A stretch of DNA of 64,000 nucleotides. It comes from Pseudobdellovibrionaceae bacterium. Lineage in GTDB: Bacteria > Bdellovibrionota > Bdellovibrionia > Bdellovibrionales > Bdellovibrionaceae. The notes under the pieces are model-generated. The model saw only the letters and a program-made list of their open reading frames with translations. It was not told the DNA's origin and searched no databases. The stretch is taken from assembly GCA_030158485.1 (NCBI GenBank), contig JAOASS010000014.1:49367-113366 (forward strand). The letters are read 5' to 3'. The position numbers were made by a program, and so were the translations under genes. Of this stretch, positions 8,731-23,430 are shown piece by piece (positions within the stretch are counted from its first letter, which is position 1; each line of letters opens with the position of its first letter).

Positions 8731-9588
8731 TTAATGAGAATTTTCTTGAACCACTTCTTCGGCTTGAAGGTTTTCTCCCATTCGATATCGATCGACTAAA
8801 GTTGCATCATTTGTAGGAAAAGAAAAAAGCAATGTGTGAACGGCTTGGCCTTCATCTTCAACAGTCGCTACTATGTAAGTCAAATCACTGGTGGCATGAT
8901 CTGGAAACTCTTTAATAAAAACGACTAATTGGTGACCACTCAAATCTGATTTTCTCCAGATTTCATCGGGCTCTTCGATTGTGGATTCACGGATGTCGGC
9001 AAAGTTTTTAAATTCACTTTGAGGAATATCTTGGTCTGATCGAACTTTTAACATTGATAAATAAAGACCCAAAGCCAGTCCATCGGACTCTAACAAAGAA
9101 TCCCCTTCCAAAGCTCCTTCTGCAACTTTTTCGAAAACTTTATCGTAGATGAGTTCACCTTTTTTAAAATGTTTATGAAGTTCTTGGTCTTTTGTGGGAA
9201 AATGAGTCAGGACGAAAGTCGGGACTTGTTCATCAACCGTCACATAGCAAATCGCAATATAAATAAAGTCCTGGGATTTGGCTTGAATTTCTTTTGTGTA
9301 AATATGAATGACTAAGTCCGAAAATGTTTTTGAATCTTTCCAAATTCGATCGGGCGCTGCTAATACTTCTTCGAGATGCTTCTCAAGCTTAACTTGGGCT
9401 TTATCTGAAAAATCCGTACTTTTTCGGTGAGTCGTGTACTGGGTCTCAAGCTCGTCGATATGGCGATTAAAATACCCATCCAATGCTTTTTCCGATTCAA
9501 AAATAAGACCTGCTTTTTCATCAATGACGATAAGCTCTTCTGCTTTTGCTGACTTTTTTTTGTGACCACGAGACTTCGAGTTTTTCAT
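8731..9588 (-). CDS. Hypothetical protein with two tandem related domains (possible PBECR-like fold)
   Basis: The 285-residue soluble protein has a Lys/Ser-rich start (KSRGHKKKSAK) and no signal peptide. Its body is an internal duplication: residues about 72-146 and 200-275 share a P-D-x-I-W motif (79-83 and 207-211), then alternating beta strands, a T/L-L-x-x-F-P-T core and a closing G-E-L/G-E-N-L. The pattern PDxIW followed by strands recalls phage-associated Barnase/EndoU/ColicinE5/RelE-like (PBECR) nuclease folds, but that link is memory-based and uncertain. It is transcribed away from a palindrome-rich region shared with the divergent small gene. Confidence 0.7.
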   Translation of the reverse strand: MKNSKSRGHKKKSAKAEELIVIDEKAGLIFESEKALDGYFNRHIDELETQYTTHRKSTDFSDKAQVKLEKHLEEVLAAPDRIWKDSKTFSDLVIHIYTKEIQAKSQDFIYIAICYVTVDEQVPTFVLTHFPTKDQELHKHFKKGELIYDKVFEKVAEGALEGDSLLESDGLALGLYLSMLKVRSDQDIPQSEFKNFADIRESTIEEPDEIWRKSDLSGHQLVVFIKEFPDHATSDLTYIVATVEDEGQAVHTLLFSFPTNDATLVDRYRMGENLQAEEVVQENSH

Positions 9589-10232: not shown

Positions 10233-11387
10233 ATGAATACCACGCAATCACGTTTTGCTACCGTGGCAATGGGAGTTCTCGCAATGTTGTACGTTACCGG
10301 ATGTGAGAGTCAAAACCAGGTTCCACAAGAAGAAGTTCGATTTCATGCCTATGACATCAACGCTTATCCTTTGAATAAAGTCGTCTGCGATCCCATGGGA
10401 AGCAGTGGTGGCAGTTCTCCAAAACAAGGGGTTAAAGCTGAACTTTTTTATCGCTCCCAAGGGCAGCCACGATATTATACGGCCCAGCAGTATATTGATC
10501 ACACGACTCAAGCCGATCAAAATCTCTTTTTTTCGGATATCTTTGTACCAACCCGTTTGTTTAACGTGGGTTTTACCACTCAGACAAGCGGCGTCTTAAA
10601 AGATGATACCGGCCAAACTTTGATTGAATATTTTGGCCTTAAAATGAAAACGACGATTCGCCTCTCGCCAAATGATTCAGAAGGTGTTTACGAATTTGCA
10701 CTTCTCAGTGACGATGGTTCGCTGATGAGTATCAAAGAAAATGATACTTGGAAGCAAATCATTAATAATGACGGCGACCATCCGACTCGTCTTGGCTGTT
10801 CATCACATCGCGTGACGATGACTGCCGATACAAAATTAGAAACCGAAATTCTTTATTACCAAGGACCTCGTACACACATCTCCAATACTTTGCTTTGGAG
10901 AAAATTAAGTGATGCTCAAGTTGCAGGTCAGGATTTAGCTTGTGGCCAAACTGGAAATGACCACTGGTTTCAATCGACAAATAATTCCATCCCAACAGCT
11001 CACTTCACAGGACTACTTGCAAGAGGCTGGAATGTTGTCAGTCAAAGTAACTTTTATGTTCCACAAGAAAGTACAGAAAACGCTCAGTACAATCCTTGTA
11101 CTGATGGAATGGCACCTGTTATTTCTGATTTACAAATCACAGAGCTTGTCAGCACTGACATCTGGGTGGGTTGGCAAACTGATTTACCTTCAACAGGTCA
11201 GCTTATTATCACAAATGTCGCAACTGGTGATACTGTTTTGACAGCTACAGATAATATTTTAAGAACACGTCATAATATTCACTATTCTGGTTTGGAACCA
11301 AACACACAGTATCAATTACGAGTGATTAATGTGTCAGAAGATTTGGGTAAGGCACTGGGTGGACCCATTGACTTTACGACGCCTTAA
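10233..11387 (+). CDS. Lipoprotein with PA14-like and fibronectin type III-like domains
   Basis: A lipoprotein signal peptide ends in the lipobox VTGC, with lipidated C24. Residues about 60-215 look like a PA14 beta-barrel domain (F-Y-x-F, LLSDDGSL, I-N-N-D-G-D-H and a following YYQGP segment), a fold linked to carbohydrate binding or processing. Residues about 290-384 read as a fibronectin type III domain (WVGWQTD..., YSGLEPNTQYQLRV, closing PIDFTTP). Such a surface lipoprotein could bind glycans. A strong AGGAGGA site precedes the ATG. It stands first in a block of exported proteins. Domain calls are by pattern only. Confidence 0.75.
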   Translation: MNTTQSRFATVAMGVLAMLYVTGCESQNQVPQEEVRFHAYDINAYPLNKVVCDPMGSSGGSSPKQGVKAELFYRSQGQPRYYTAQQYIDHTTQADQNLFFSDIFVPTRLFNVGFTTQTSGVLKDDTGQTLIEYFGLKMKTTIRLSPNDSEGVYEFALLSDDGSLMSIKENDTWKQIINNDGDHPTRLGCSSHRVTMTADTKLETEILYYQGPRTHISNTLLWRKLSDAQVAGQDLACGQTGNDHWFQSTNNSIPTAHFTGLLARGWNVVSQSNFYVPQESTENAQYNPCTDGMAPVISDLQITELVSTDIWVGWQTDLPSTGQLIITNVATGDTVLTATDNILRTRHNIHYSGLEPNTQYQLRVINVSEDLGKALGGPIDFTTP

Positions 11388-11796: not shown

Positions 11797-13095
11797 ATGG
11801 CAGTGGAATCTTCAAAAGCTCGAAGTCGGTATCAAGATGATCTTGCAGATCTGCAGGCGGAATACTCTCGAAAAAAGAAAAAGTTGAACGAACAAAATGA
11901 AGCTGAAATCAATGATTTACAAGAAGGTCATCAAAGTAAAAAGCAAGCTCTGAATATGCAAAACGAAGCTTCGGTTAACCATATCCAAAAAACACAACAA
12001 GAGACTTTAGAAAACTATGCAGCTTCCCGCGCAAAAGCCGCAGAAAAAGGAAAAGAAAAAGTCGAAAAAATGCAAACAGCTTACAATTCTAGAATTGATG
12101 AAATGCAACAAGATCGAGCGTTAGCTATCAACAATATCAACGCTGAAAAAAAAGCAAAGCTTCAAGAAATTATGGAATATACTCAAGCAAAAGTAAATGA
12201 AGCCCGAGAAAATGGAAAGCGCGAACTCGATTCGATTAAAAATCATTACAAAACACAAACACTGACTCAAAACGAAAAATCTGCTTCGAAACTTGAACAA
12301 ACTCGTGAAAACAACGATGTTCAAATTGAAAGCGAAAAAATGCGCGGAGAAAGGTCTCAAGAAAAAGTTCGCTTAACTTATGAACAACAAATTAAAAAAT
12401 TGCACCAAGAAGGTGATGCTCAAGCTGAATTCGAAAAAAACTTAGCTGATCAAAAATTACAAAAAGTCGATTCTGAATTTAAAAAGAATTATGAAAAAGC
12501 TTATCAAACTTGGACTCAACGTGAAAAGTACATGCAAGACTCCTACGCGCAAAAGCTTGAAACTCAAAAAGAAAACCATCAAGAACTGATTAAAAATCAA
12601 AATCAGCATTTCGAAAAAGTTTATGGAAAAAAAGAAACTGACAATCAAATAGCACTTGGAATTCAAGAAAGTCGCTACACAAAACAAGTCTTAAATCAAA
12701 AACGAAAAATGATGCGAGAAGTAAGTCAGTACGCAGGAAAAGAAGAAGATCCTTTCTATAAAATCGAAGACCGGGGTTCGCGAATTAAAGAAACATCACG
12801 CTCTTATATTTTAGAAGCTTATTCCCCCGAACACGAAAAAGATTCAATCCGAGTCACTGTCGATCGATCAAAAGCCGTTATTAGCGGGCAAAGAGCCTTT
12901 AACGATAAACTTGAAGACGAAACAAAAAAAATCTCCACTGACAACTTCCAAAGCTTCAGAGAAGAATTTAAATTCGATATCCCCGTCGCCACCGAAGCTA
13001 TGGTCCGCGAACGTCGGGGCGATTATGTCATATTTGAAATACCCAAAATGTCGGCAGTCGACAGCCAAACTGTAAAGTTTTCTAAAAAAGTTTAG
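11797..13095 (+). CDS. Long coiled-coil protein with a C-terminal alpha-crystallin (Hsp20)-like domain
   Basis: Residues about 5-310 are a continuous, highly charged Lys/Glu/Gln coiled coil without signal peptide. Residues about 335-418 resemble an alpha-crystallin domain: SYILEAYSP like the Y-x-L-x-x-x-L-P strand, then DSIRVTVDRSKAVISGQR like the I-x-V-x-V-x-x-x-x-L-x-I-x-G-E-R strand. FREEFKFDIP matches the F-x-R-x-F-x-L-P strand, and the domain closes with GDYVIFEIPK, matching the G-V-L-x-I-x-I-P-K end. No family with this layout is known to me. It could be a cytoplasmic scaffold or holdase. It converges with the pseudopilin operon, 13 bases away. Confidence 0.7.
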   Translation: MAVESSKARSRYQDDLADLQAEYSRKKKKLNEQNEAEINDLQEGHQSKKQALNMQNEASVNHIQKTQQETLENYAASRAKAAEKGKEKVEKMQTAYNSRIDEMQQDRALAINNINAEKKAKLQEIMEYTQAKVNEARENGKRELDSIKNHYKTQTLTQNEKSASKLEQTRENNDVQIESEKMRGERSQEKVRLTYEQQIKKLHQEGDAQAEFEKNLADQKLQKVDSEFKKNYEKAYQTWTQREKYMQDSYAQKLETQKENHQELIKNQNQHFEKVYGKKETDNQIALGIQESRYTKQVLNQKRKMMREVSQYAGKEEDPFYKIEDRGSRIKETSRSYILEAYSPEHEKDSIRVTVDRSKAVISGQRAFNDKLEDETKKISTDNFQSFREEFKFDIPVATEAMVRERRGDYVIFEIPKMSAVDSQTVKFSKKV

Positions 13096-13108: not shown

Positions 13109-14011
13109 TTAAGGACAAGCTTGAGAATTGGGACCTGAACAAGTTCCAGCCAAGCAGCTTCTTGTTTGCCTGCCGTCAGAACAAGCCGTCCAATCGGACC
13201 ACACGCCATTTCTTGATAAGGATCCACAAGTCGCGACCCCATTGATGTAGCTCGTGACAAAGTTCCCTGGACCACAATTCACTGTCTGAGCATTTGTGAT
13301 ACATTTTCCTGAACCATCGACTGTTCCACCAAGAGTCGCACAAATTTCTAAGCCCGTTCCCATGCAATCTTGTGCCGTTGCATCCCAAACAAGTCCCAAG
13401 TCTTCACAAAGAACTTGCGGATTCATTTCGGGAACAAGGTCGCAAGTTTGAATCACACCTGATGCATCTGTTTCGATCCTTAAAGTTTGAATAACTAATG
13501 GTTTAAAGCTCATTTCATTTTCTGATAATGCCGCAACTTTCACTTGTAGATCAACAGTGTATAGATTTGGCGCCACAGCTACCGGAGCATTCAATGAATC
13601 ATGATTTGTGATGGTCATCGAAATCACTTGCAGTTTTGAGCCTGTCGAAACGGCAGTGCTCAAACCTGGTACCACACTTAAATTATAAGTCGGTAAAGCA
13701 TCACTTTCTTGCATGAGACTCGTTAAAGAATAATTTGGCGTCGCACCGAATGAAACGTTATTCAGGTCTCGCAAATTATAAAGACAAGTTGCAGATCGTC
13801 CCAGAGCGGATTCAATTTGTGACTGTAAGGACTTGATTTCATTTTTTATCGAAGCCCGACTCACTTCAGAGTTCATATTGGCACCGATGGTCATCAAGGC
13901 AAATGCGAGAGCTCCCAAAAGGCTCACGGCAATCATGACTTCCACAAGTCCAAAGCCTGATTCTTGAAGTTTGGAAAATTTGATAACAGCTATTCTTTTT
14001 TGTTTTATCAT
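13109..14011 (-). CDS. Prepilin-like protein 3 of cluster, Cys-rich tail with TSP1-like motif
   Basis: A type II/IV prepilin N-terminus, GFGLVEVMIAVSLLG (about residues 19-33), predicts cleavage by prepilin peptidase after Gly and N-methylation. A roughly 150-residue pilin-like middle follows. The tail contains two C-x-x-LG...C modules (CEDLGLVWD..., CATLGGTVD...) and ends with WSDWTAC...R-x-x-R-S-C, which resembles a thrombospondin type 1 repeat. It is the last gene of a three-gene minus-strand operon. An upstream in-frame GTG at 14032 would add seven residues; ATG 14011 was chosen because an AGG-type ribosome site fits better. Confidence 0.85.
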   Translation of the reverse strand: MIKQKRIAVIKFSKLQESGFGLVEVMIAVSLLGALAFALMTIGANMNSEVSRASIKNEIKSLQSQIESALGRSATCLYNLRDLNNVSFGATPNYSLTSLMQESDALPTYNLSVVPGLSTAVSTGSKLQVISMTITNHDSLNAPVAVAPNLYTVDLQVKVAALSENEMSFKPLVIQTLRIETDASGVIQTCDLVPEMNPQVLCEDLGLVWDATAQDCMGTGLEICATLGGTVDGSGKCITNAQTVNCGPGNFVTSYINGVATCGSLSRNGVWSDWTACSDGRQTRSCLAGTCSGPNSQACP

Positions 14012-14053
14012 AAGCTCTTTAATTTTCCTCACTGCAAATCATAGATTAAAAAT

Positions 14054-15016
14054 TTATGGTGAAACGCAATCTTCAACTGTCGGCCCGTCACATATACCCA
14101 ATAAACAAGTTCGAGTTCGAGTTCCTGGCCCAGGGCTTGGGGAACATCGCGTCCATCTTGACCAAGTTGGCGTCGCAGCTGGAGTCTGACAAATTGGCAT
14201 ACCATCACTATAACCCACAATCACTTGATTAGGATCAGGACATGAGAAGTCTTTAAGCGCAGAGGGTAGCTTGCAATACCATGGAGGTTGCCAACACCAT
14301 CGTGTGATACAAACAGCCGGCTGACTGCCACCGAGTTCAGCACATAAACTTCTTTTTGCTTCGGGAGACGTCGGAAGACATGTGCCCGTTCCAGACATCT
14401 CCAAACCCATAACGTCTTCGCAGCTCTCCCTTGGTGGCGCAGTATCGCGAGTTGATAAACAGTCTTGTAAGTTTCGAGATCCGTCTGTGTGCAAAACAAT
14501 AGACGGGATAACAATGGGTTTTAAAGTCACTTCTCCTTTGGGCGTTGTAAAAGTCACTCGTAAAGACCCCAAGTAAGTTCGGACTGTCGTATTGTTTTTT
14601 ACCAAAACGGGGTTGTTCGAAGCTGAACTAGGAGAAGTGAGCTGCATACTCGCCACTTGTAATTTTGAATTAGGAAAAACTGGAACTCCCGTCGCAGGTA
14701 TAACTGTTGAAACTTCAGTGGTTCCAGTGGGGTCATATTCTTTAATCGCAGCAAAGTCGGTTTTGATGGCTCCAGCCCTAAGAGAAAAACCATTCGCGAC
14801 AAGATTCGCGTGACACAGAGCGGGCTTTCTAAAAATATTCTCAAGTTGATTCTGCAATGAATTACGATCAGCTGCTAGTTGAGCCGAAGCCATTTGTTTC
14901 CAAACCTGAGAAACTAAGCTCGCCACACCTAAACCCACAACTCCAACTAAAGCAGTGACCACGAGGGTCTCAACTAAACTGAAGCCTTGATCGGAACTTA
15001 TATTTTTTTTGATCAT
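14054..15016 (-). CDS. Prepilin-like protein 2 of cluster, Cys-rich tail with TSP1-like motif
   Basis: The start MIKKNISSDQ is followed by the prepilin motif GFSLVETLVVTALVG, with Glu at +5 of the mature protein. The rest is a pilin-like body and a Cys-rich tail: an ESCED...C module, a C-AELGG module, an unusual Trp/Cys-rich insert (CWQPPWYC), then TWSRWTRC with T-R-T-R-T-C as in thrombospondin type 1 repeats. It is paralogous to the genes on either side. Pseudopilins are incorporated into type IV pilus or type II secretion filaments; minor pilins at tips often carry adhesive domains, which would suit this tail. The adhesin role is inference. Confidence 0.85.
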   Translation of the reverse strand: MIKKNISSDQGFSLVETLVVTALVGVVGLGVASLVSQVWKQMASAQLAADRNSLQNQLENIFRKPALCHANLVANGFSLRAGAIKTDFAAIKEYDPTGTTEVSTVIPATGVPVFPNSKLQVASMQLTSPSSASNNPVLVKNNTTVRTYLGSLRVTFTTPKGEVTLKPIVIPSIVLHTDGSRNLQDCLSTRDTAPPRESCEDVMGLEMSGTGTCLPTSPEAKRSLCAELGGSQPAVCITRWCWQPPWYCKLPSALKDFSCPDPNQVIVGYSDGMPICQTPAATPTWSRWTRCSPSPGPGTRTRTCLLGICDGPTVEDCVSP

Positions 15017-15056
15017 GACATTTTGTCTTTCTCAAATAAGAAAATTTTTAAAAGTT

Positions 15057-16226
15057 TCAGTAGGGGTTCATGATTTCAGTGTAGTCGGTCCACGTTGGTC
15101 CTCCAACAGAACCCGTAACCTCGGCAGCACCAGGTGAACAATAACTACCGGGTCCTCCACCCACTCTTGTTCCATTCGGAGGACACGCAGTCGCGCTACA
15201 AATTGTATATTGACCACCGCCGCCGGGATTGTTGCTATCGGGTAACGGCACTGTGCTGACACATGTAAAAGTACATCCGATATAAGGAGCATTGTACTGG
15301 CTGCAAGTCTTAGAACTAGCACCGGAACAATTTCCTGCAATACATGATCTTGTTACCGTCGCACTTCCACAACCTGTTGGACAGCTTGTTGGCCACGGCC
15401 CCCAAACTCCAGCAGTTAAGGGCTCACACACAGGCTGTCCGCTGCCATCGAAGCGGTTCACAGCTTGACCAGCAGGGCATGCCATGGTCAAAGCTGGAAC
15501 GACTTCACATTTGCCAGTCGTCGCATTAATTGTTCCACCGAGCTCTGCACAAGTTCTTTCTGCATTTTGAACGCAACCACCACCAGGGTTGGGATTCGAG
15601 CGCGTCGGTTCGTATTGTTTCCAAACCATTCCAAGTGCCGCACAAGTTGTTTCAGGAACTGCTTGAACAGAAGAAGCACTGCATTCTGAAAAGTTTCCGG
15701 CCAAATCCGTTTTCATGATAATCGAAGGCACAATAACAGGCTTCATCGCCACTGTTTTGTCTGTGGGTGCAAATTCAATTACGACGTCAGATAAATAACT
15801 TTTTATTGTTCCCACAGTTGAAATTAGAATCGGAGCACCCGTCCCGCCTGGACCTGTAATTTTCATAGCGGAAGCTCTTAATTTTGAGCCAGCGGCGATA
15901 GGTTGATTTAATCCTGGAACAAGAGTCGCAATAGAAGTTGGATTGTTATCTGCGTAATCACGTAACACTGAAAAAGTTAGAACTGGATTAGCCGCACGAA
16001 TTTTAATGCCTGCGACGTTCATATTTCGATCACAAGCGTAGGGCTTTTTCAAAACTGCTTCGACTGAAGACTGTAAAGAATTACGCTCAACTCGAGCCGA
16101 AGTCTGTGCCATCTGATTCGCAGACTGGGTCACAAGAGCCCCAATCCCCAAACCCACTATAGTCAAAATACTAATCGAGACCAAAGTCTCAACAAGGGTA
16201 AAACCGTGATTATTATTTAAATTCAT
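15057..16226 (-). CDS. Prepilin-like protein 1 of cluster, Cys-rich tail with TSP1-like motif
   Basis: First gene of the operon. ATG 16226 is preceded by GAGAGG; a TTG nine bases further out is possible. The prepilin motif GFTLVETLVSISILTIVG is near the N-terminus. The pilin body (to about 200) is followed by CAALG...C and CAELGGTINATTGKC modules, then GVWGPWPTSCPTGCGSATVTRSC, the best thrombospondin-type-1 match of the three (W-x-x-W...C...C-G...R-x-C). It ends in a Gly/Pro/Cys-rich extension about 55 residues longer than in its paralogues. It is probably secreted through a type II/IV pilus-like machine encoded elsewhere. Confidence 0.85.
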   Translation of the reverse strand: MNLNNNHGFTLVETLVSISILTIVGLGIGALVTQSANQMAQTSARVERNSLQSSVEAVLKKPYACDRNMNVAGIKIRAANPVLTFSVLRDYADNNPTSIATLVPGLNQPIAAGSKLRASAMKITGPGGTGAPILISTVGTIKSYLSDVVIEFAPTDKTVAMKPVIVPSIIMKTDLAGNFSECSASSVQAVPETTCAALGMVWKQYEPTRSNPNPGGGCVQNAERTCAELGGTINATTGKCEVVPALTMACPAGQAVNRFDGSGQPVCEPLTAGVWGPWPTSCPTGCGSATVTRSCIAGNCSGASSKTCSQYNAPYIGCTFTCVSTVPLPDSNNPGGGGQYTICSATACPPNGTRVGGGPGSYCSPGAAEVTGSVGGPTWTDYTEIMNPY

Positions 16227-16370
16227 ACCTCTCAATTTTAAACTAAATTTTTGTTTTTATTCAAATTTCTAATTTATTTCCAAACCAAATCACTACGTTT
16301 GACTTGAAAAATTAAATTCCAAATTTGAGATTTCCCATTTTGAGAAAAATGACATTTTTTGTGAAACTGA

Positions 16371-18353
16371 TTGAGAGAATACAATTCAAAAGCTCTAGAC
16401 CCCATTAGATTTCAAATCTGTCTGGTACGATCTTCGCTAGCATCAATTCTTATGTTGTTAGCGCTCTTCATTTTTATTCAAGCGTTTGGTGCAAAATCCG
16501 ACTTAAGCTTACTTCAGCGTGCCCAGTCAGACGAACCTGTTCATACAGAGTTGCTGGACGAAGATGGGTTAAGAGGATTTATTAAAGTCTATGAAAACGG
16601 CACTTGGGTGCCGCTGCCTCAAGTCAGACGAACTCAATACTTTACATATGCTTTCGAAAAAATGCCTTTGATTTTAGAACATCTAAATCGCAATGAAAGC
16701 TTTATCAAAAATTTAAGCGAATCAGAACTTCACATGCTACAACAAATCGATGATTATCTTAAAATAAAAAAAATAAGACTTCAATTTTCCTATAATCAAG
16801 CTTACTTCCAATTAAACACCAACGAAACTGTTCGTACAGCTTCGACTACGCCTGAAATTGACAGCGATATCTTCATCAATAAACTGATTATAGACGATCC
16901 TTTAAATGAAATTAATTTTTCTGATGCTTTAAGACTTCTGATCCACGAATTGGGTCATAAAATCAAAAAATCAAGTCAATCTGAACTTGATCTACTTGCA
17001 AATAAAATTAAAAACACATTTGAAAATGAAATCGAGTCCAAAAGTCTTATTGGATTAGGTAAAATGACTTTAGTGAAAAATCCTTTTCTTATTTTTGTCG
17101 AGAACTCTGATGAAGTGATCGAATTGTCTGAACAACTTATGAAAACACTTAACTTAAAACAACAGATGATAAAACCCGGTATGATGTATTCCTCTTACTC
17201 AAACGAGCAAAAAAAAGTCATACGTCAAACTTCAATTTTAGAAGCTCAAACCTATTTAGGACCGTTGAATCATACCATTCTACGATTAAAATCAAACTAT
17301 TCTGCACATTTTGCATCAAATCAGTTAGCGAGTGAGTTTATAGATGCATTGCAATTTAGCTCACTTGCTACGGAAAATGATGTCCTTATCACTTCAAATC
17401 CAAAATCGCCTTTTAAACTTTTGAGCTCAAAAAAGCTTTATCAGGTCGAAGATCAAATAATAATTGGAAGTATTTCAGCTCAATGGCTCGATCACAATCG
17501 AATCGAAATTTCGGCACAAATTCCTAAAGTATTGAATACAGAATTTCCAGATCTCTTGATTGAAAATGGAAAAATATCATTTCGCTTGAAAATACAAAGT
17601 CTTGACGAGAAAGGAAATGCAAAATGGCTTTTGAATACTGAAAATGGAGCTCAAGATTCTGAGTTTTTGGCACAAGCCGTTGTCACAAAGGCAGGTAAAA
17701 TTATTTTTTCAGAAAATGGAATTCTGCTAAAACTTCTTGGTGATCAACAACTCCAATCAAAACTTCGATTAAAATCAATTCAAGTTCAAAATACCGAGCC
17801 CGAGATGAATGAAAAAGGACCTGCTCAAGCTTTTATTAAACTTCGCTTTAAATCACGCACTCCCATCAAAGAAGTCAGACTTGCTTTTACAAAAGAGTGG
17901 GCTTCTTATGCAAAATATCAAGTTACTGAACCCCATTTTTTTAGCTCTAATTTACAAAATGGATATCCACGAAGTGAATCCCCATTAGCGTACAAAGATG
18001 GTATCGATTTTATGATCTTTGATGAAACTGATTTTACGCAAAAAAAAGTGGGACCGTACTATGAAGTTGAAATCACCAAAGAAGAATACCTCGAACACAT
18101 TTCAATTTTTGCTGGCCAGTACACACAACATATAAGTTGGGCTTATACAAATACTCAAACAGCAAAAAAATATTTCGGTATTGATGAAGGTCATCGAAAA
18201 ATCTCCCATATCGAAGCTGTTAACACTTCTCTTGAACAAGTCTCAACAAAATGGCGGACTTCAGTAAAGTACAGAATTTATGAACAACGCTTCTGTCGTG
18301 AGCTCATTCAAAGACAGGAAGCCTTTCAAAGAAATTTAAAAAATAGTTATTAA
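16371..18353 (+). CDS. Exported hypothetical protein with HELGH zinc-site motif
   Basis: The protein has about 660 residues with one hydrophobic export segment (about 21-40, SLASILMLLALFIFIQAFGA), so it is probably periplasmic or secreted. HELGH at about 192-196, in the context ALRLLIHELGHKIKK, matches the HExxH zinc-metalloprotease signature. The rest is beta-rich with no recognised domain. The start is uncertain: TTG 16371 gives a Lys/Arg-containing n-region; the ATG at 16452 would leave a signal peptide without positive charge. It neighbours a second HExGH lipoprotein (18514-20361) and may form a pair with it. Confidence 0.65.
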   Translation: MREYNSKALDPIRFQICLVRSSLASILMLLALFIFIQAFGAKSDLSLLQRAQSDEPVHTELLDEDGLRGFIKVYENGTWVPLPQVRRTQYFTYAFEKMPLILEHLNRNESFIKNLSESELHMLQQIDDYLKIKKIRLQFSYNQAYFQLNTNETVRTASTTPEIDSDIFINKLIIDDPLNEINFSDALRLLIHELGHKIKKSSQSELDLLANKIKNTFENEIESKSLIGLGKMTLVKNPFLIFVENSDEVIELSEQLMKTLNLKQQMIKPGMMYSSYSNEQKKVIRQTSILEAQTYLGPLNHTILRLKSNYSAHFASNQLASEFIDALQFSSLATENDVLITSNPKSPFKLLSSKKLYQVEDQIIIGSISAQWLDHNRIEISAQIPKVLNTEFPDLLIENGKISFRLKIQSLDEKGNAKWLLNTENGAQDSEFLAQAVVTKAGKIIFSENGILLKLLGDQQLQSKLRLKSIQVQNTEPEMNEKGPAQAFIKLRFKSRTPIKEVRLAFTKEWASYAKYQVTEPHFFSSNLQNGYPRSESPLAYKDGIDFMIFDETDFTQKKVGPYYEVEITKEEYLEHISIFAGQYTQHISWAYTNTQTAKKYFGIDEGHRKISHIEAVNTSLEQVSTKWRTSVKYRIYEQRFCRELIQRQEAFQRNLKNSY

Positions 18354-18513
18354 CCTAAAAACTCCGAAATCAAAATCAACCAAAAACGAATAACTTTTAA
18401 ACACTTCTAAAATATTTGAGAAATCTTTTCTGAGCCCGTACTTGCTCCACAATAAATCAGGATTCTGTCCTATATTGCGTTTTTAATTCGCATTATTGGG
18501 AGTCCAGAATACC

Positions 18514-20361
18514 ATGCCAAAACAATTTATTTTTCTCACTTTATTTGCGGCAAGCTTCTTAACTGCTTGTTTGAAAGAGTCCACTGCCGCTTCGAGCAAA
18601 AATCGAATTCTACAACAAATCCAGTCTTCAGAGCAAAAACCAGTTCAAAATTCGCAGCACTTAGCTTGTGCCACTGATACTTGTGGGTCGGCAGCCAAAC
18701 TCCCCTACTTGTCTGTTAAGCCCCAGGAAGTCGATGTTCATCTTTATAAAAAAAATCTAGAACATATTTTGCAAGAATATTTAGATTTGCAAAAAGATTC
18801 TCTTCAATTCAAAAGCAAGGTTCTTCAAGATTTTAGCGCGATGCAAATACACAGTCTATCGGACTCGAATTTAGTTTTAATTAATTTTTTACTTTTCGTT
18901 CAGTATGATGGGGCTGTTTCAAGTGCTCTGAAATTTGCAAATAATCGAATACAAGTAGATGTTGAAAGCCTGAAAAAAGAACTTGAAAAAGTAAGTTTAG
19001 TTGACGTCGGGCAAATACGTTGGATCACAACAACGGCGAAATTAATTTTTGAGTCCCAGTTCTTTTATGAGAATTGGTATTTGAGCCAGTTTCCACTAGA
19101 AATTTTTGTGCAAAAAAAATATCCCGAACTTCAAATTTTAGATGCCTTATCTGCTGAAGCTAAAACACTCTTGGAGACCCAAAACCGATTTATTGAAAAC
19201 TATCCCCTTTTGGAAGATGGCGCAGATTCTACTCTTGCCGTTCTTAAGAAAGCGATTTCGAAGCAGCCCTTATCGCCCGATGAAAAAAAAGAATTTATTT
19301 TGTCTCGACTCACTTTATCAATTTATCGAGATATACTGCCTCATGGTTCATGGAGAAGTCATTTTACGAAAAGTCCTTTTATCATCAACCAGATTATTCA
19401 AGATTCCTTAGCAAAATATCAAAAGTCTTTAAAGTATTCTAATGACAAAACAAAAATGCAAAAAGATTTTCAAACTGTTAGCTTTGAATGTAGCTACCAT
19501 CTCTTGAACAAAATTGCAGCGTCACCGACACTTCAACAGAATAATCGATTCAGAAATAGAATTCAAAATTTAAAATCCGAAAGTCTTAAAATTATCAACT
19601 CAAACTATAAATCACCTGAAGTCCTACAAGCTTTAGATCAAGTAAAGCTCATTTTACCACCAACAAAAGATGAAACAGTGACTGGTCAGATCAGGTCTTT
19701 TTTGCACGAAATAAAATCGACTAAAAAAATGATCGAAAGAATTAAAAAATTCAATTTTAATAATCAAGATGACAAAGAAACTGTTCTTTTGATGCTTGTC
19801 GGTTCATCCATTTCTTCAACTATTTCAACAGATGAAAATGTTTTTATCGATGTCAAAGAATACTGCGAAGAACAAAGCCCTGAAACGATTTCGGACGCAG
19901 CTTACACAAACTACCAAGTCGTCAACGTGGGCTGGAGATCCGTGCTTTATCCTGAATACGGGCTTGGAATTGCGGCCCATGAAATCGGCCACGTTCTTTC
20001 AACTGCGGACGCCGCACAAGGTTCCCAATCTCAATTCACAAAAGTAAAAGCCTGTTTGTCACAGAACCAAAATGGCTCGACAAATTTCGTGGAAGAAGAT
20101 TTTGCAGATTTATTTGCAGCTCAAATCATAAAACAACAACCGCAAGCTCATTCAAATTATTCTTGTCTATTGTTGTCGCAAGAAAGTGGTGAATTTTCAG
20201 AACTTGAGCTGACTTCCTCACACCCGGAAGCGAAGCATTCAAGTAGCTTTTACCGCTTGATTGCCATCGGAAGTCACACCCATAAATTAAGTCCTAGTTG
20301 CCGAGCTGTTAAATTAAATTCAGATAAAGGACATGCACTTAAAAACTGCTGGGGACTCTAA
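18514..20361 (+). CDS. Putative metallopeptidase lipoprotein (HEIGH...E)
   Basis: A lipoprotein signal ending in LTAC predicts an envelope-anchored protein. ATG 18514 was chosen because it gives the lipobox directly after a short hydrophobic core; a TTG six codons upstream is the alternative. The central region is helical. HEIGH lies at 489-493, followed about 33 residues later by an EEDFADLFA segment (E527/E528) that could supply the third zinc ligand, as in gluzincin-type peptidases. Several Cys after residue 40 suggest disulfides. No family was recognised. Like its upstream neighbour it combines export and an HExGH site. Confidence 0.65.
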   Translation: MPKQFIFLTLFAASFLTACLKESTAASSKNRILQQIQSSEQKPVQNSQHLACATDTCGSAAKLPYLSVKPQEVDVHLYKKNLEHILQEYLDLQKDSLQFKSKVLQDFSAMQIHSLSDSNLVLINFLLFVQYDGAVSSALKFANNRIQVDVESLKKELEKVSLVDVGQIRWITTTAKLIFESQFFYENWYLSQFPLEIFVQKKYPELQILDALSAEAKTLLETQNRFIENYPLLEDGADSTLAVLKKAISKQPLSPDEKKEFILSRLTLSIYRDILPHGSWRSHFTKSPFIINQIIQDSLAKYQKSLKYSNDKTKMQKDFQTVSFECSYHLLNKIAASPTLQQNNRFRNRIQNLKSESLKIINSNYKSPEVLQALDQVKLILPPTKDETVTGQIRSFLHEIKSTKKMIERIKKFNFNNQDDKETVLLMLVGSSISSTISTDENVFIDVKEYCEEQSPETISDAAYTNYQVVNVGWRSVLYPEYGLGIAAHEIGHVLSTADAAQGSQSQFTKVKACLSQNQNGSTNFVEEDFADLFAAQIIKQQPQAHSNYSCLLLSQESGEFSELELTSSHPEAKHSSSFYRLIAIGSHTHKLSPSCRAVKLNSDKGHALKNCWGL

Positions 20362-20454
20362 ATTGAAAAAAATTGGCTTAGAAACTGCAATAACGAATAA
20401 ACGACTACAAAGTAGGGGCAAATTGACTCCACTTTTGAATGAAAGGAATTTGTT

Positions 20455-21585
20455 TTGAAAACACACAAAAACCGTTCGAACCACTTACCTCAACTTTTCG
20501 CTCTCACTCTGATCGGAAGTTTAAGCTTTGGACTGATTCTGCCATTTGCGGCTTCGGCTCAAAGCCGATCATTTGGAGTCATCGGTATTGACTCGAATCA
20601 AAATGTAAATTTACCCAGCGATCGTTATGACGACTATGATATTGGACGATATCAAGATTCCTATGACCAAGCAGAACGTCGACTCAGAAATGAAGAAAGA
20701 CGTTTTGAAAGCATCAATCGTGATTACGAACGGGCTGTTGATCGAAAAGAACGCGCTGATAAAAGCTTTCAAGCGGAAGCTCGAAAAGTAGAAATGAATC
20801 AAAAACTGATTCCCGAGCTTGAAAAATCCATCGAAGCAGACAAACAAGTTCTAGCTGGCTTAGAAATTCCTTTAGTTCGCGCTGCAAATGAAGTCCGTGC
20901 GTATCAGACTCGATACGACGAAGCGAAAGCCAATATTGAACATTTCAAAGCTCGTCGCGATAAAGCAAGCCCCAGTGATAAAGTCGCATTGGACAAACTA
21001 ATTGCTGCTCATGAAGCGGCTCTCGTTCATAAGCTCGAGCTTTTAAATACTAAAAAACAAGAGCAGATTCAATTGGAAGCCGTTAATTCTCAAAAGAAGA
21101 ACGCTGTTGAACAAAACACAAAAAAGCTCGAAACAGCAAAGCGCGATCTTGAAATGGCTCAATCTCAAGTTGCTTCTTTGAAACGACAAGCTGAAGAAGC
21201 TCAAAATGAAGTCAAAGAAATGAAACGTGAAGTTGATTTTGCTGCTGATAACTTGCGGACTGAAAGAAGAAATGTTGAAATCGCACTTCGAAATTTAGAT
21301 CGCGTTGAAAGAAATATTTCTGTCGCACGTCAGATTTTAGAAGACCAAGGTCACCGGGATGGTGAAAATGATGGCCGCAGAGAATGCTTTGAGCTGACTC
21401 GCGAAGCTTCAAGTGAATCTACAAACTTGCGTCCACAAGGTCGCTTTTCAAATAACGGTGACGACCGTTATTACAATCCCAGAAGAATTTCAGTGCCTCA
21501 TGATCGTCTCACGCGTTTTTATCCAGATGCCTACGACCGTGGGTACCGCGATGAATTGGATCGAAACTGTCGAATCGGTTTTTAA
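20455..21585 (+). CDS. Exported coiled-coil hypothetical protein, TTG start
   Basis: A signal peptide (about 1-35, ending ASA) is followed by a long charged coiled coil (about 70-300) and a Cys-containing, Arg/Asp/Tyr-rich C-terminus with GHRDGENDGRRECF and AYDRGYRDELDRNC, which look like two halves of a repeated motif. TTG is the start because AAAGGA lies seven bases upstream and no ATG is available before the signal peptide. It is probably a periplasmic or surface structural protein. Its family is unknown. A strong intrinsic terminator follows. Confidence 0.7.
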   Translation: MKTHKNRSNHLPQLFALTLIGSLSFGLILPFAASAQSRSFGVIGIDSNQNVNLPSDRYDDYDIGRYQDSYDQAERRLRNEERRFESINRDYERAVDRKERADKSFQAEARKVEMNQKLIPELEKSIEADKQVLAGLEIPLVRAANEVRAYQTRYDEAKANIEHFKARRDKASPSDKVALDKLIAAHEAALVHKLELLNTKKQEQIQLEAVNSQKKNAVEQNTKKLETAKRDLEMAQSQVASLKRQAEEAQNEVKEMKREVDFAADNLRTERRNVEIALRNLDRVERNISVARQILEDQGHRDGENDGRRECFELTREASSESTNLRPQGRFSNNGDDRYYNPRRISVPHDRLTRFYPDAYDRGYRDELDRNCRIGF

Positions 21586-21611
21586 GGATATCACAAGTTT
21601 TGTTTGAAATT

Positions 21612-21648
21612 AAAACCTGGGCTTCATGACATGGAGCTCAGGTTTTTT
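21612..21648 (+). terminator. Rho-independent terminator after the exported coiled-coil gene
   Basis: CCTGGGCTTCAT (21616-21627) pairs with ATGGAGCTCAGG (21631-21642) as a 12-bp stem with two G-U wobbles around a GAC loop. Six T follow, and four A precede the stem. The wobbles favour the plus-strand transcript, matching the orientation of the preceding gene. Confidence 0.85.
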
Positions 21649-21773
21649 AGTTTTTAAAAAACCTGCAATTTGCGTCAGTCCCCTGTAGTTTCTGCTGTCC
21701 ACAATCCTAACACTCGAAAGTCGCCCAGAATCACGCTATGACTTAAGGCCAAGGGCTAAACGGGGGTTTTCAA

Positions 21774-22259
21774 ATGAAATCAATGATCGTCACAATGGCT
21801 TTCTTTATGACAACGGTTTTACCACAGACAGTTCATGCTGAAAATGCTGACATTAATAATTGCGTTCAGGAAATTCGAAAAAATTGGCTTTCAAAAACAA
21901 GTGTTCATTACAAAGGATACACCCGCGTCGATGAATCTCCCTGTGAACTGATAATGGAATTAGATCAAAATGGATTAACAGTTCAAGGCTTGTCGGAAAA
22001 TACAAATGTGACTTTTGAGTTCCAAAATAGGACTTTGGGCAAAAGTCGAAGTCTTCAAACTTGCCGAGTCGATCAGGAAAAAATTCATTTTGCATTTGAA
22101 GAAAGAACAACTGGTAGCTTCGAAAAAAGAGATCGTTTCCAGATGACTCTTCTCAAGCGAGACGGAAATAAAATGAGCTTGATCTTAAATAAACAAGAAA
22201 ACAAAATCTTAAGGCCTTTACAGAAAAGCAGTCTGATCTGTCATTTAACAAAATTCTAG
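21774..22259 (+). CDS. Small exported hypothetical protein
   Basis: A 161-residue protein with a signal peptide (MKSMIVTMAFFMTTVLPQTVHA) and a beta-rich mature domain containing four Cys, which could form two disulfides in the periplasm. No family was recognised. The ATG is preceded by a G-rich ribosome site (GGGGG, eight bases upstream). Its stop codon lies two bases from the 3' end of a convergent small gene, leaving no room for a terminator between them. Confidence 0.65.
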   Translation: MKSMIVTMAFFMTTVLPQTVHAENADINNCVQEIRKNWLSKTSVHYKGYTRVDESPCELIMELDQNGLTVQGLSENTNVTFEFQNRTLGKSRSLQTCRVDQEKIHFAFEERTTGSFEKRDRFQMTLLKRDGNKMSLILNKQENKILRPLQKSSLICHLTKF

Positions 22260-22632: not shown

Positions 22633-23244
22633 TTAATACTCACACTGCAAACTTGCTAAATCTGTTTCCTGTAATTGATTGCGATCGTGGTTAGCTTTTA
22701 AATAGGTCGCCATCACACTTGGAGACGCGTCATTATGACGCAAGCCTATAACGTGACCGAGCTCATGCAGCAAAAGAGCTTGAATACTAATCGCTTGCGG
22801 ATTTGAAACCGAATCCGTCACATAGAATTGATAGTTTTGTCCGTTGATTCGAATATCAGCTTCTTGAATTTGATCACCCACCCAGTAAAGTGAAGTGCGA
22901 GCTTGTTCAGAAGCTTTTTCTGTTTCCCAAGTTGAGCTTAAATAAATCACATTCTTGCCATCACGAACTGGAGACCCACCAGCTAGCCTCAGGGATTCAA
23001 TCGTTATGAGTTGTCGCCGATGAGCTTTGTTCCAGCTTTCAGCTGCAGCTCGAATTCCAATTTCATAATCAGCAGGAATTGAAGCGTGAAGAAATAGCTT
23101 AATCGGTGAATTTTGCTTCCAAGAAACTCTTTCACCATAAACATTTTGAACATAACCACAATCTTTTTGAGCTTTTGGTTTTGCGCAACTCGCAAGAATC
23201 AAAATAAGATACATTAAAAAAACTAAACGTAGGCCAGTCGTCAA
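22633..23244 (-). CDS. Matrixin-like zinc metalloprotease lipoprotein (M10/M12 type)
   Basis: This appears to be a metzincin-type peptidase. HELGHVIGLRH gives three zinc-binding His and the catalytic Glu (about residues 160-170), and the Met-turn VMATYL follows about eight residues later. A lipobox (LASC, Cys about 20) anchors it to the envelope. TTG 23244 was taken as the start because AGGAG lies ten bases upstream; an in-frame GTG at 23286 and ATG at 23277 would lengthen the N-terminus. The substrate is unknown. It is one of three zinc-protease-like exported proteins within 7 kb. Confidence 0.8.
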   Translation of the reverse strand: MTTGLRLVFLMYLILILASCAKPKAQKDCGYVQNVYGERVSWKQNSPIKLFLHASIPADYEIGIRAAAESWNKAHRRQLITIESLRLAGGSPVRDGKNVIYLSSTWETEKASEQARTSLYWVGDQIQEADIRINGQNYQFYVTDSVSNPQAISIQALLLHELGHVIGLRHNDASPSVMATYLKANHDRNQLQETDLASLQCEY

Positions 23245-23430
23245 ATGCTCAAGTCTCCTGATACTCTTCGCTATCATACTCTTCACTATCGCAAGATGAA
23301 GACCGCCTGATTTCAGGTTTAAATCGATCCTAACTTGACAGCCCTTAGCCGAATTGAATCTTAAAAACCAAGTATTGGGCTAACAATTTAAAATGATTAA
23401 AGAAAATGCTGACTAATTTATCGACACCCC

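Follow-up and report, generated by a model that had tools for sequence, protein, structure and literature searches.

Three tandem prepilin genes with thrombospondin type 1-like tails in Bdellovibrionales, probable modular minor pilins of a type IV pilus

The minus strand of a 64,000-nucleotide stretch of DNA from a Pseudobdellovibrionaceae bacterium (GenBank assembly GCA_030158485.1, contig JAOASS010000014.1, positions 49,367 to 113,366; hereafter the window), whose genome comprises 2.48 Mb in 23 contigs, holds three consecutive paralogous genes transcribed in the order A, B, C. Each encodes a predicted prepilin signal, a pilin body, two cysteine-hairpin modules and a tail that appears related, at profile level, to the thrombospondin type 1 (TSP1) repeat. 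The trio probably comprises modular minor pilins that form a multivalent adhesive tip on a type IV pilus.

Prepilin signals, pilin bodies and cysteine-hairpin modules

An earlier note, made from the sequence of this DNA, had described three consecutive genes with a prepilin motif, each followed by C-x-x-LG...C modules. Both observations were borne out in the minus-strand open reading frames, with two modules in each protein:

15057..16226, minus strand: gene A (P0003), prepilin with TSP1-like tail and a ~80-residue Cys-rich C-terminal extension; transcribed first
16226, minus strand: ATG start of gene A; TTG at 16235 is a possible alternative
16131..16205, minus strand: gene A, predicted prepilin cleavage site between G11 and F12, E at +5, and hydrophobic helix
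15507..15644, minus strand: gene A, two C-x2-LG...C hairpin modules (residues 198-243)
14054..15016, minus strand: gene B (P0002), prepilin with short four-Cys TSP1-like tail
14912..14986, minus strand: gene B, predicted prepilin cleavage site between G11 and F12, E at +5, and hydrophobic helix
14309..14422, minus strand: gene B, two C-x2-LG-like...C modules (residues 199-236)
13109..14011, minus strand: gene C (P0001), prepilin with minimal four-Cys TSP1-like tail
14011, minus strand: ATG start of gene C, favoured over GTG at 14032
13883..13957, minus strand: gene C, predicted prepilin cleavage site between G26 and F27 (GTG numbering), E at +5, and hydrophobic helix
13301..13408, minus strand: gene C, two C-x2-LG...C modules (residues 209-244)

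Intergenic gaps are ~40 bases each, from stop to likely start. In pairwise comparison the three proteins are paralogous over their full length (28–30% identity, E 1e-31 to 1e-48). In all of them GF(T/S/G)LVE precedes a hydrophobic helix; Pfam N_methyl matches A (E 4.7e-7) and B (E 1.2e-4) above its cut-off and C slightly below it (E 4e-4), and the IV_pilin_GFxxxE model exceeds its cut-off in A and B. By sequence, the trio bears the class III prepilin signal of a modular type IV pilin (cleavage between G and F, E at +5, hydrophobic helix). An AlphaFold model of full-length A with its paralogs was unreliable (pLDDT 39), displaying a long N-terminal helix followed by strands. Equivalog models gave no GspI/J/K or PilHIJK match, the best scores (GspH/GspI) reaching 12–18 bits against cut-offs of 44–80. 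A search for relatives on contigs of other genomes returned N-terminal pilin-helix matches only, mostly from unrelated phyla, and was left unused; PHROGs yielded no convincing match.

Within the module stretch of gene A, C229, G233, G234 and C243 are invariant in an eight-sequence alignment. Of 110 members of the wider family described below, 60 contain a less strict version of the module; shuffles gave a mean of 12.

Relation of the tails to TSP1 repeats

The three tails share the motif W-x2-W...C...TR-x-C-x2-G-x-C-x-G-x5-C, which also occurs in three orthologs from another genus, with W or F as the second aromatic residue:

15273..15410, minus strand: gene A TSP1-like domain WGPWPTSCPTGCGSATVTRSCIAGNCSGASSKTC plus C6 at residue 321 (tail profile against PDB, profile-profile match)
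15060..15302, minus strand: gene A extension beyond the TSP1-like motif, Cys/Gly-rich, containing the domain's C6 and similar in the orthologous protein of the other genus
14066..14170, minus strand: gene B TSP1-like domain PTWSRWTRCSPSPGPGTRTRTCLLGICDGPTVEDC, lacking C2 and C6 (TSP1_spondin E 0.012, below cut-off; tail profile)
13115..13207, minus strand: gene C TSP1-like domain GVWSDWTACSDGRQTRSCLAGTCSGPNSQAC, lacking C2 and C6 (tail profile against PDB)

The tail signature reported in the earlier note is thus present in all three proteins, although its R-x-C is more exactly TR-S/T-C and gene A, instead of ending there, continues for ~80 residues past the TSP1-like part. The tails are all Cys-rich, as had been stated, with the full set of six cysteines confined to A; B and C have four, C2 and C6 being jointly absent. 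In the canonical TSP1 repeat C2 and C6 form one disulphide bridge, and their joint loss is as that bridge would require. A chance origin of the motif was excluded by its occurrence in 0 of 20,000 shuffled C-terminal halves.

Comparison of PDB sequences with a profile of the three tails returned TSP1-domain proteins in 13 of 13 matches, the best being thrombospondin-1 (E 3.9e-11; best single-domain E 0.002). With the three orthologs of the other genus added, all 22 matches were TSP1 (best E 1.3e-14), whereas a reversed-tail control profile gave zero PDB matches. Alignment with hhalign against TSP1 domains of the same order reached 97.8% probability over 21 columns, corresponding to the W..W..C..R half of the tail, compared with 2.9% for the reversed control. 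At profile level the similarity extends to thrombospondin-1, F-spondin and TRAP. The curated model told otherwise: Pfam TSP_1 had no match in the three window proteins, and the strongest Pfam trace, TSP1_spondin in tail B only, lies far below cut-off. Since the profile relation is present and the curated threshold is not reached, 'TSP1-like' is the safe name, and the proposed fusion of prepilin and thrombospondin parts stands in that qualified form. A tail of this kind supplies the extra C-terminal domain from beyond pilus biology that characterizes a modular pilin.

Across the order, Pfam TSP_1 exceeds its cut-off in 24 of 141 genomes, against 0 of 14 control genomes under an identical threshold; the majority of the proteins with TSP_1 in those 24 genomes are not prepilins. 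Four of the genomes (G004, G006, G132 and G038) nonetheless combine a prepilin-like N-terminus and an above-cut-off TSP_1 within one chain, so the architecture read from the window recurs in relatives with Pfam-valid domains. In G004 three prepilin-TSP_1 genes lie within a single stretch of 7 kb, along with a broken fourth copy (L106:9205-9817) whose pilin N-terminus is joined out of frame to a C-terminal piece resembling that of its neighbour; this copy is possibly a recombination remnant.

An orthologous trio in a second genus

In G077, a genome of another genus of the same family, genes A, B and C each have a 1:1 ortholog bearing a TSP1-like tail; the neighbourhood differs from that of the window, and gene C is inverted:

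L080:6310-7386: ortholog of A, core identity 36%
L080:7290-8279: ortholog of B, core identity 39%
L080:8282-9178: ortholog of C, core identity 42%

These orthologs rule out a coding artefact as the source of the trio. Core identity between paralogs is 25–35%, lower than in the orthologous pairs, and the tails, at 37–68% identity, compare with 25–42% for the cores; the six-Cys tail form belongs to A in both genera. Phylogenetically, both trios and L164 form a seven-row set (support 97/99) in which C pairs with C (100/99) and A with A (86/88), the two B proteins being closest by path in an unresolved pairing. L164, from a genome of another family (G089), shares the pilin body and has no TSP1 tail.

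Genomic context of the trio

The trio lies beside three further genes in what comparison with three related genomes indicates to be a strain-variable island:

13109..21770, no strand assigned: strain-variable island, trio plus genes 16371-18353, 18496-20361 and 20455-21585

Homologs of the flanking genes (window 11797-13095 and 21774-22259) are only ~116 bases apart in G002, of the same genus. In G001 the same interval is occupied by other genes (L245:6889-10817), and in G003 the left flanking gene directly precedes a homolog of 22633-23286, with no trio there. The G+C content of the trio (45.0%) exceeds that of the window (39.4%, standard deviation 1.9), which fits horizontal gain and is no proof of it.

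Two island genes adjoining the trio and divergent from it, 16371-18353 and 18496-20361, encode exported proteins that belong to no Pfam family and have zinc-protease-like motifs (HELGH, HEIGH). Outside the island, 10233-11387 encodes a lipoprotein-like protein, kept in G001 and G002, whose matches to PA14 and fibronectin III are weak and do not reach the cut-offs. The gene at 8731-9588, conserved throughout the family, matches a PBECR2 nuclease-like domain above cut-off in two stretches (E 1.5e-12).

The genome encodes PilT above the curated cut-off, together with further extension-type secretion/pilus ATPases, and a PilA-like gene lies ~4 kb before the window. Elsewhere, on contig C13, a GspG-H-I-J-like cluster suggests that the host probably has a type II secretion system (T2SS). 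A PilY1 search gave no match in any sequence, and no conclusion was drawn from it.

A wider family with a constant body and variable tails

A profile built on the pilin body, tails excluded, finds the family in 95 of the order's 141 genomes (E<=1e-8). Among 68 sampled clusters, 42 were single genes, 12 pairs, 12 trios and two fours; the sample was drawn from the stronger matches and includes genes close to contig ends, and the counts are therefore not population frequencies. Most other trios cluster by locus in the tree, which indicates that trios arose more than once. Related tails were found in 38 of 60 neighbouring pairs, compared with 103 of 5,935 between-locus pairs.

Pfam assigned tail domains in 101 members as follows: Hint in six, S74 chaperone in five, TSP1 in four, and collagen IV NC1 and RCC1 in one each. 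A direct view of exchanged tails on a constant body is provided by L211 of G082, where the bodies of three tandem prepilins (L211:6541-10599) are mostly 80–97% identical to about residue 200 and the tails mostly <30%; these unrelated tails are fibre-like, Cys-rich and Hint. Other prepilins ending in Hint, an intein/hedgehog-like domain, occur at L166, L167, L168, L170 (G120), L192:1557-3314 and L207:3344-4774, alongside the L211 member (L211:9034-10599). The Hint tails share a ...YxANGYLVHNK ending and are possibly self-processing. S74 is an intramolecular chaperone domain that phage tail fibres and Bdellovibrio MAT proteins also employ; prepilins ending in it were seen at L186:3946-5199 (G023), L218:4583-6549 (G048) and L199:4285-5289 (G016). 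A prepilin-family protein of the same order (L195:3840-5048, G098) terminates in collagen IV NC1 (Pfam C4, E 4.8e-37), a domain familiar from animal basement membranes.

We tentatively propose that Bdellovibrionales possess a large and hitherto undescribed set of exchangeable tips for type IVa-type pili, in which cassettes of two to four minor pilins would form hetero-oligomeric tips that set a strain's grip on prey or surfaces. The proposal encompasses a constant body, swappable TSP1, collagen IV NC1, S74/fibre, RCC1 and Hint ends, and variable insertion sites. Within it, and just as provisionally, the window trio may be the TSP1 version.

Proposed function and alternative explanations

As modular minor pilins, the three proteins would each be inserted into the inner membrane by the class III signal and cut after Gly by prepilin peptidase, whereupon the N-terminal helix would dock the subunit into a type IVa-like filament. 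A conserved Cys pair would close the pilin body, which would bear two or three Cys-hairpin spacers and, outermost, the TSP1-like domain. Bulk and variable ends would place the subunits at the filament tip, where a hetero-oligomer of A, B and C could display three TSP1-like domains side by side, so that the pilus would grip multivalently, holding a protein or glycan carried by prey or by some other surface, with PilT retraction providing the pull. Filament incorporation, tip position, hetero-oligomerization, adhesion and its ligand, and prey as the target are what we infer. Because the three proteins are distinct, share the same tail and are conserved as a set in two genera, a tip hetero-oligomer is the likeliest arrangement.

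Several observations weigh against this reading. The trio occurs in just 2 of 369 genomes of the phylum and was not found in the two other genomes of its own genus, which marks it as accessory and not core. Among the neighbours scanned, no pilus gene was recognised beside it. Pfam TSP_1 does not match A, B or C, and AlphaFold gave no usable model (tails alone, pLDDT 41). In known tip complexes Glu5 is missing from the capping subunit (PMC10191384), whereas all three window proteins keep it; Glu5 is absent from C of G077, and a Glu5-less cap as a rule for every trio was dropped, trios being mixed in this respect. Finally, the tail similarity within loci of the wider family could be plain tandem duplication.

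That point bears on a possible but less probable account, in which the proteins are tandem duplicates acting independently as low-abundance shaft subunits, with no joint tip and a layout that is the by-product of duplication at a variable locus. Local duplication is what the grouping of most other trios by locus implies, and the range of one to four genes per family cluster and the varying orientation (the third gene is inverted in G077) suit the same account. Yet both trio genomes keep all three orthologs, still distinct, and trios recur across several families of the order.

A second alternative concerns the tails, which might be short Cys-stabilised knots with a convergent resemblance to TSP1, making the trio modular pilins with an unrelated small cap. 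The failure of Pfam TSP_1, the brevity of the B and C tails (~31–35 residues, four Cys), the single-domain PDB E of only 0.002 and the restriction of the hhalign match to the W..W..C..R half all point that way. We nevertheless regard a knot as unlikely, given that two profiles match only TSP1 in the PDB while the reversed control matches nothing, that genuine TSP_1 domains sit on prepilins of the same order, and that C2 and C6 are lost together while A has six cysteines in both genera. It is very improbable that the trio are T2SS pseudopilins or minor pilins, or belong to a DNA-uptake pilus, with tails for secretion or DNA capture and not adhesion: the GspH and ComG models resemble the N-termini weakly, and the genome's own GspG-H-I-J-like cluster also speaks for this, but the matches fall far below equivalog cut-offs and mostly cover the N-terminus only, the trio lies outside that cluster, and it is accessory, with highly variable tails in its family.

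Should the adhesive-tip reading hold, it would bear on prey recognition by Bdellovibrio-like predators, whose pili have so far been without a plausible binding part. A constant-body family with recognisable, exchangeable outer domains offers named candidates for experimental study. The presence on bacterial pilins of TSP1 and collagen IV NC1, best known in animal extracellular matrix, also bears on the origin of these domains.

Comparison with known systems

Like GspI-GspJ-GspK and PilHIJK, the trio consists of several different prepilins encoded together, for which a single tip complex is proposed; it differs in having no equivalog match, on which ground it is not a GspIJK complex, in retaining Glu5 in all three proteins and in its Cys-rich module tails. 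Bdellovibrio MAT fibres are trimeric and beta-helical, with a constant anchor part, diverse adhesive tips and an ordinary signal peptide (PMC10769870). The combination of a constant part with diverse tips is common to both within the same bacterial group, and some sister prepilins end in S74; the trio, however, does not resemble a MAT fibre, with a prepilin signal and no S74 match in Pfam, the MAT N-terminal domain itself having not been searched.

With the TSP1 repeat the tails share W-x2-W, C1, TR-x-C, C4 and C5, together with C2 and C6 in gene A. They are shorter (31–46 residues), fall below the Pfam cut-off or have no Pfam match, and in B and C lack the C2-C6 pair.

The Kil system of Myxococcus comprises three-minor-pilin clusters with predicted heterotrimeric tips and exchangeable distal domains needed for different prey (PMC12075869). 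KilL-KilM-KilN resemble the trio in being encoded by three clustered genes, in being disulphide-rich and in their exchangeable distal domains, and likewise belong to a predatory lineage. They are of TadE/F/G type and part of a Tad pilus, whereas the trio are N_methyl (GFxxxE) prepilins; the variable distal domain resides mainly on KilN, and in the window on all three proteins. The trio are not Kil tips, since the pilin class is the wrong one; nor was a Tad/Kil locus or any other pilus gene recognised among the scanned neighbours.

The earlier note had called the fusion unusual. That description should be moderated, since modular pilins with grafted adhesive modules are a known kind, of which PMC8179133 lists 264 architectures, and the order has many prepilins whose tails have been swapped. 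In Streptococcus sanguinis PilB (vWA) and PilC (lectin), a module on a minor pilin, modelled at the tip together with other minor pilins, mediates adhesion or glycan binding (PMC8179133, PMC9934059). The trio shares with them a class III signal, a predicted pilin body and a C-terminal domain that is not pilus-specific and binds proteins or glycans elsewhere. Its module is instead TSP1-like, the same on three paralogs and separated from the body by Cys-hairpin spacers, and its adhesion is predicted. The main text of the modular-pilin survey does not name TSP1 (PMC8179133), and a full-text search of open-access literature found no paper tying Bdellovibrio or pilins to thrombospondin domains in this way. 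Relative to these systems, three features appear to be new: the module's TSP1-like character, the conservation of a three-gene set with the same tail, and the degree to which tails on one pilin body have been exchanged within the order.

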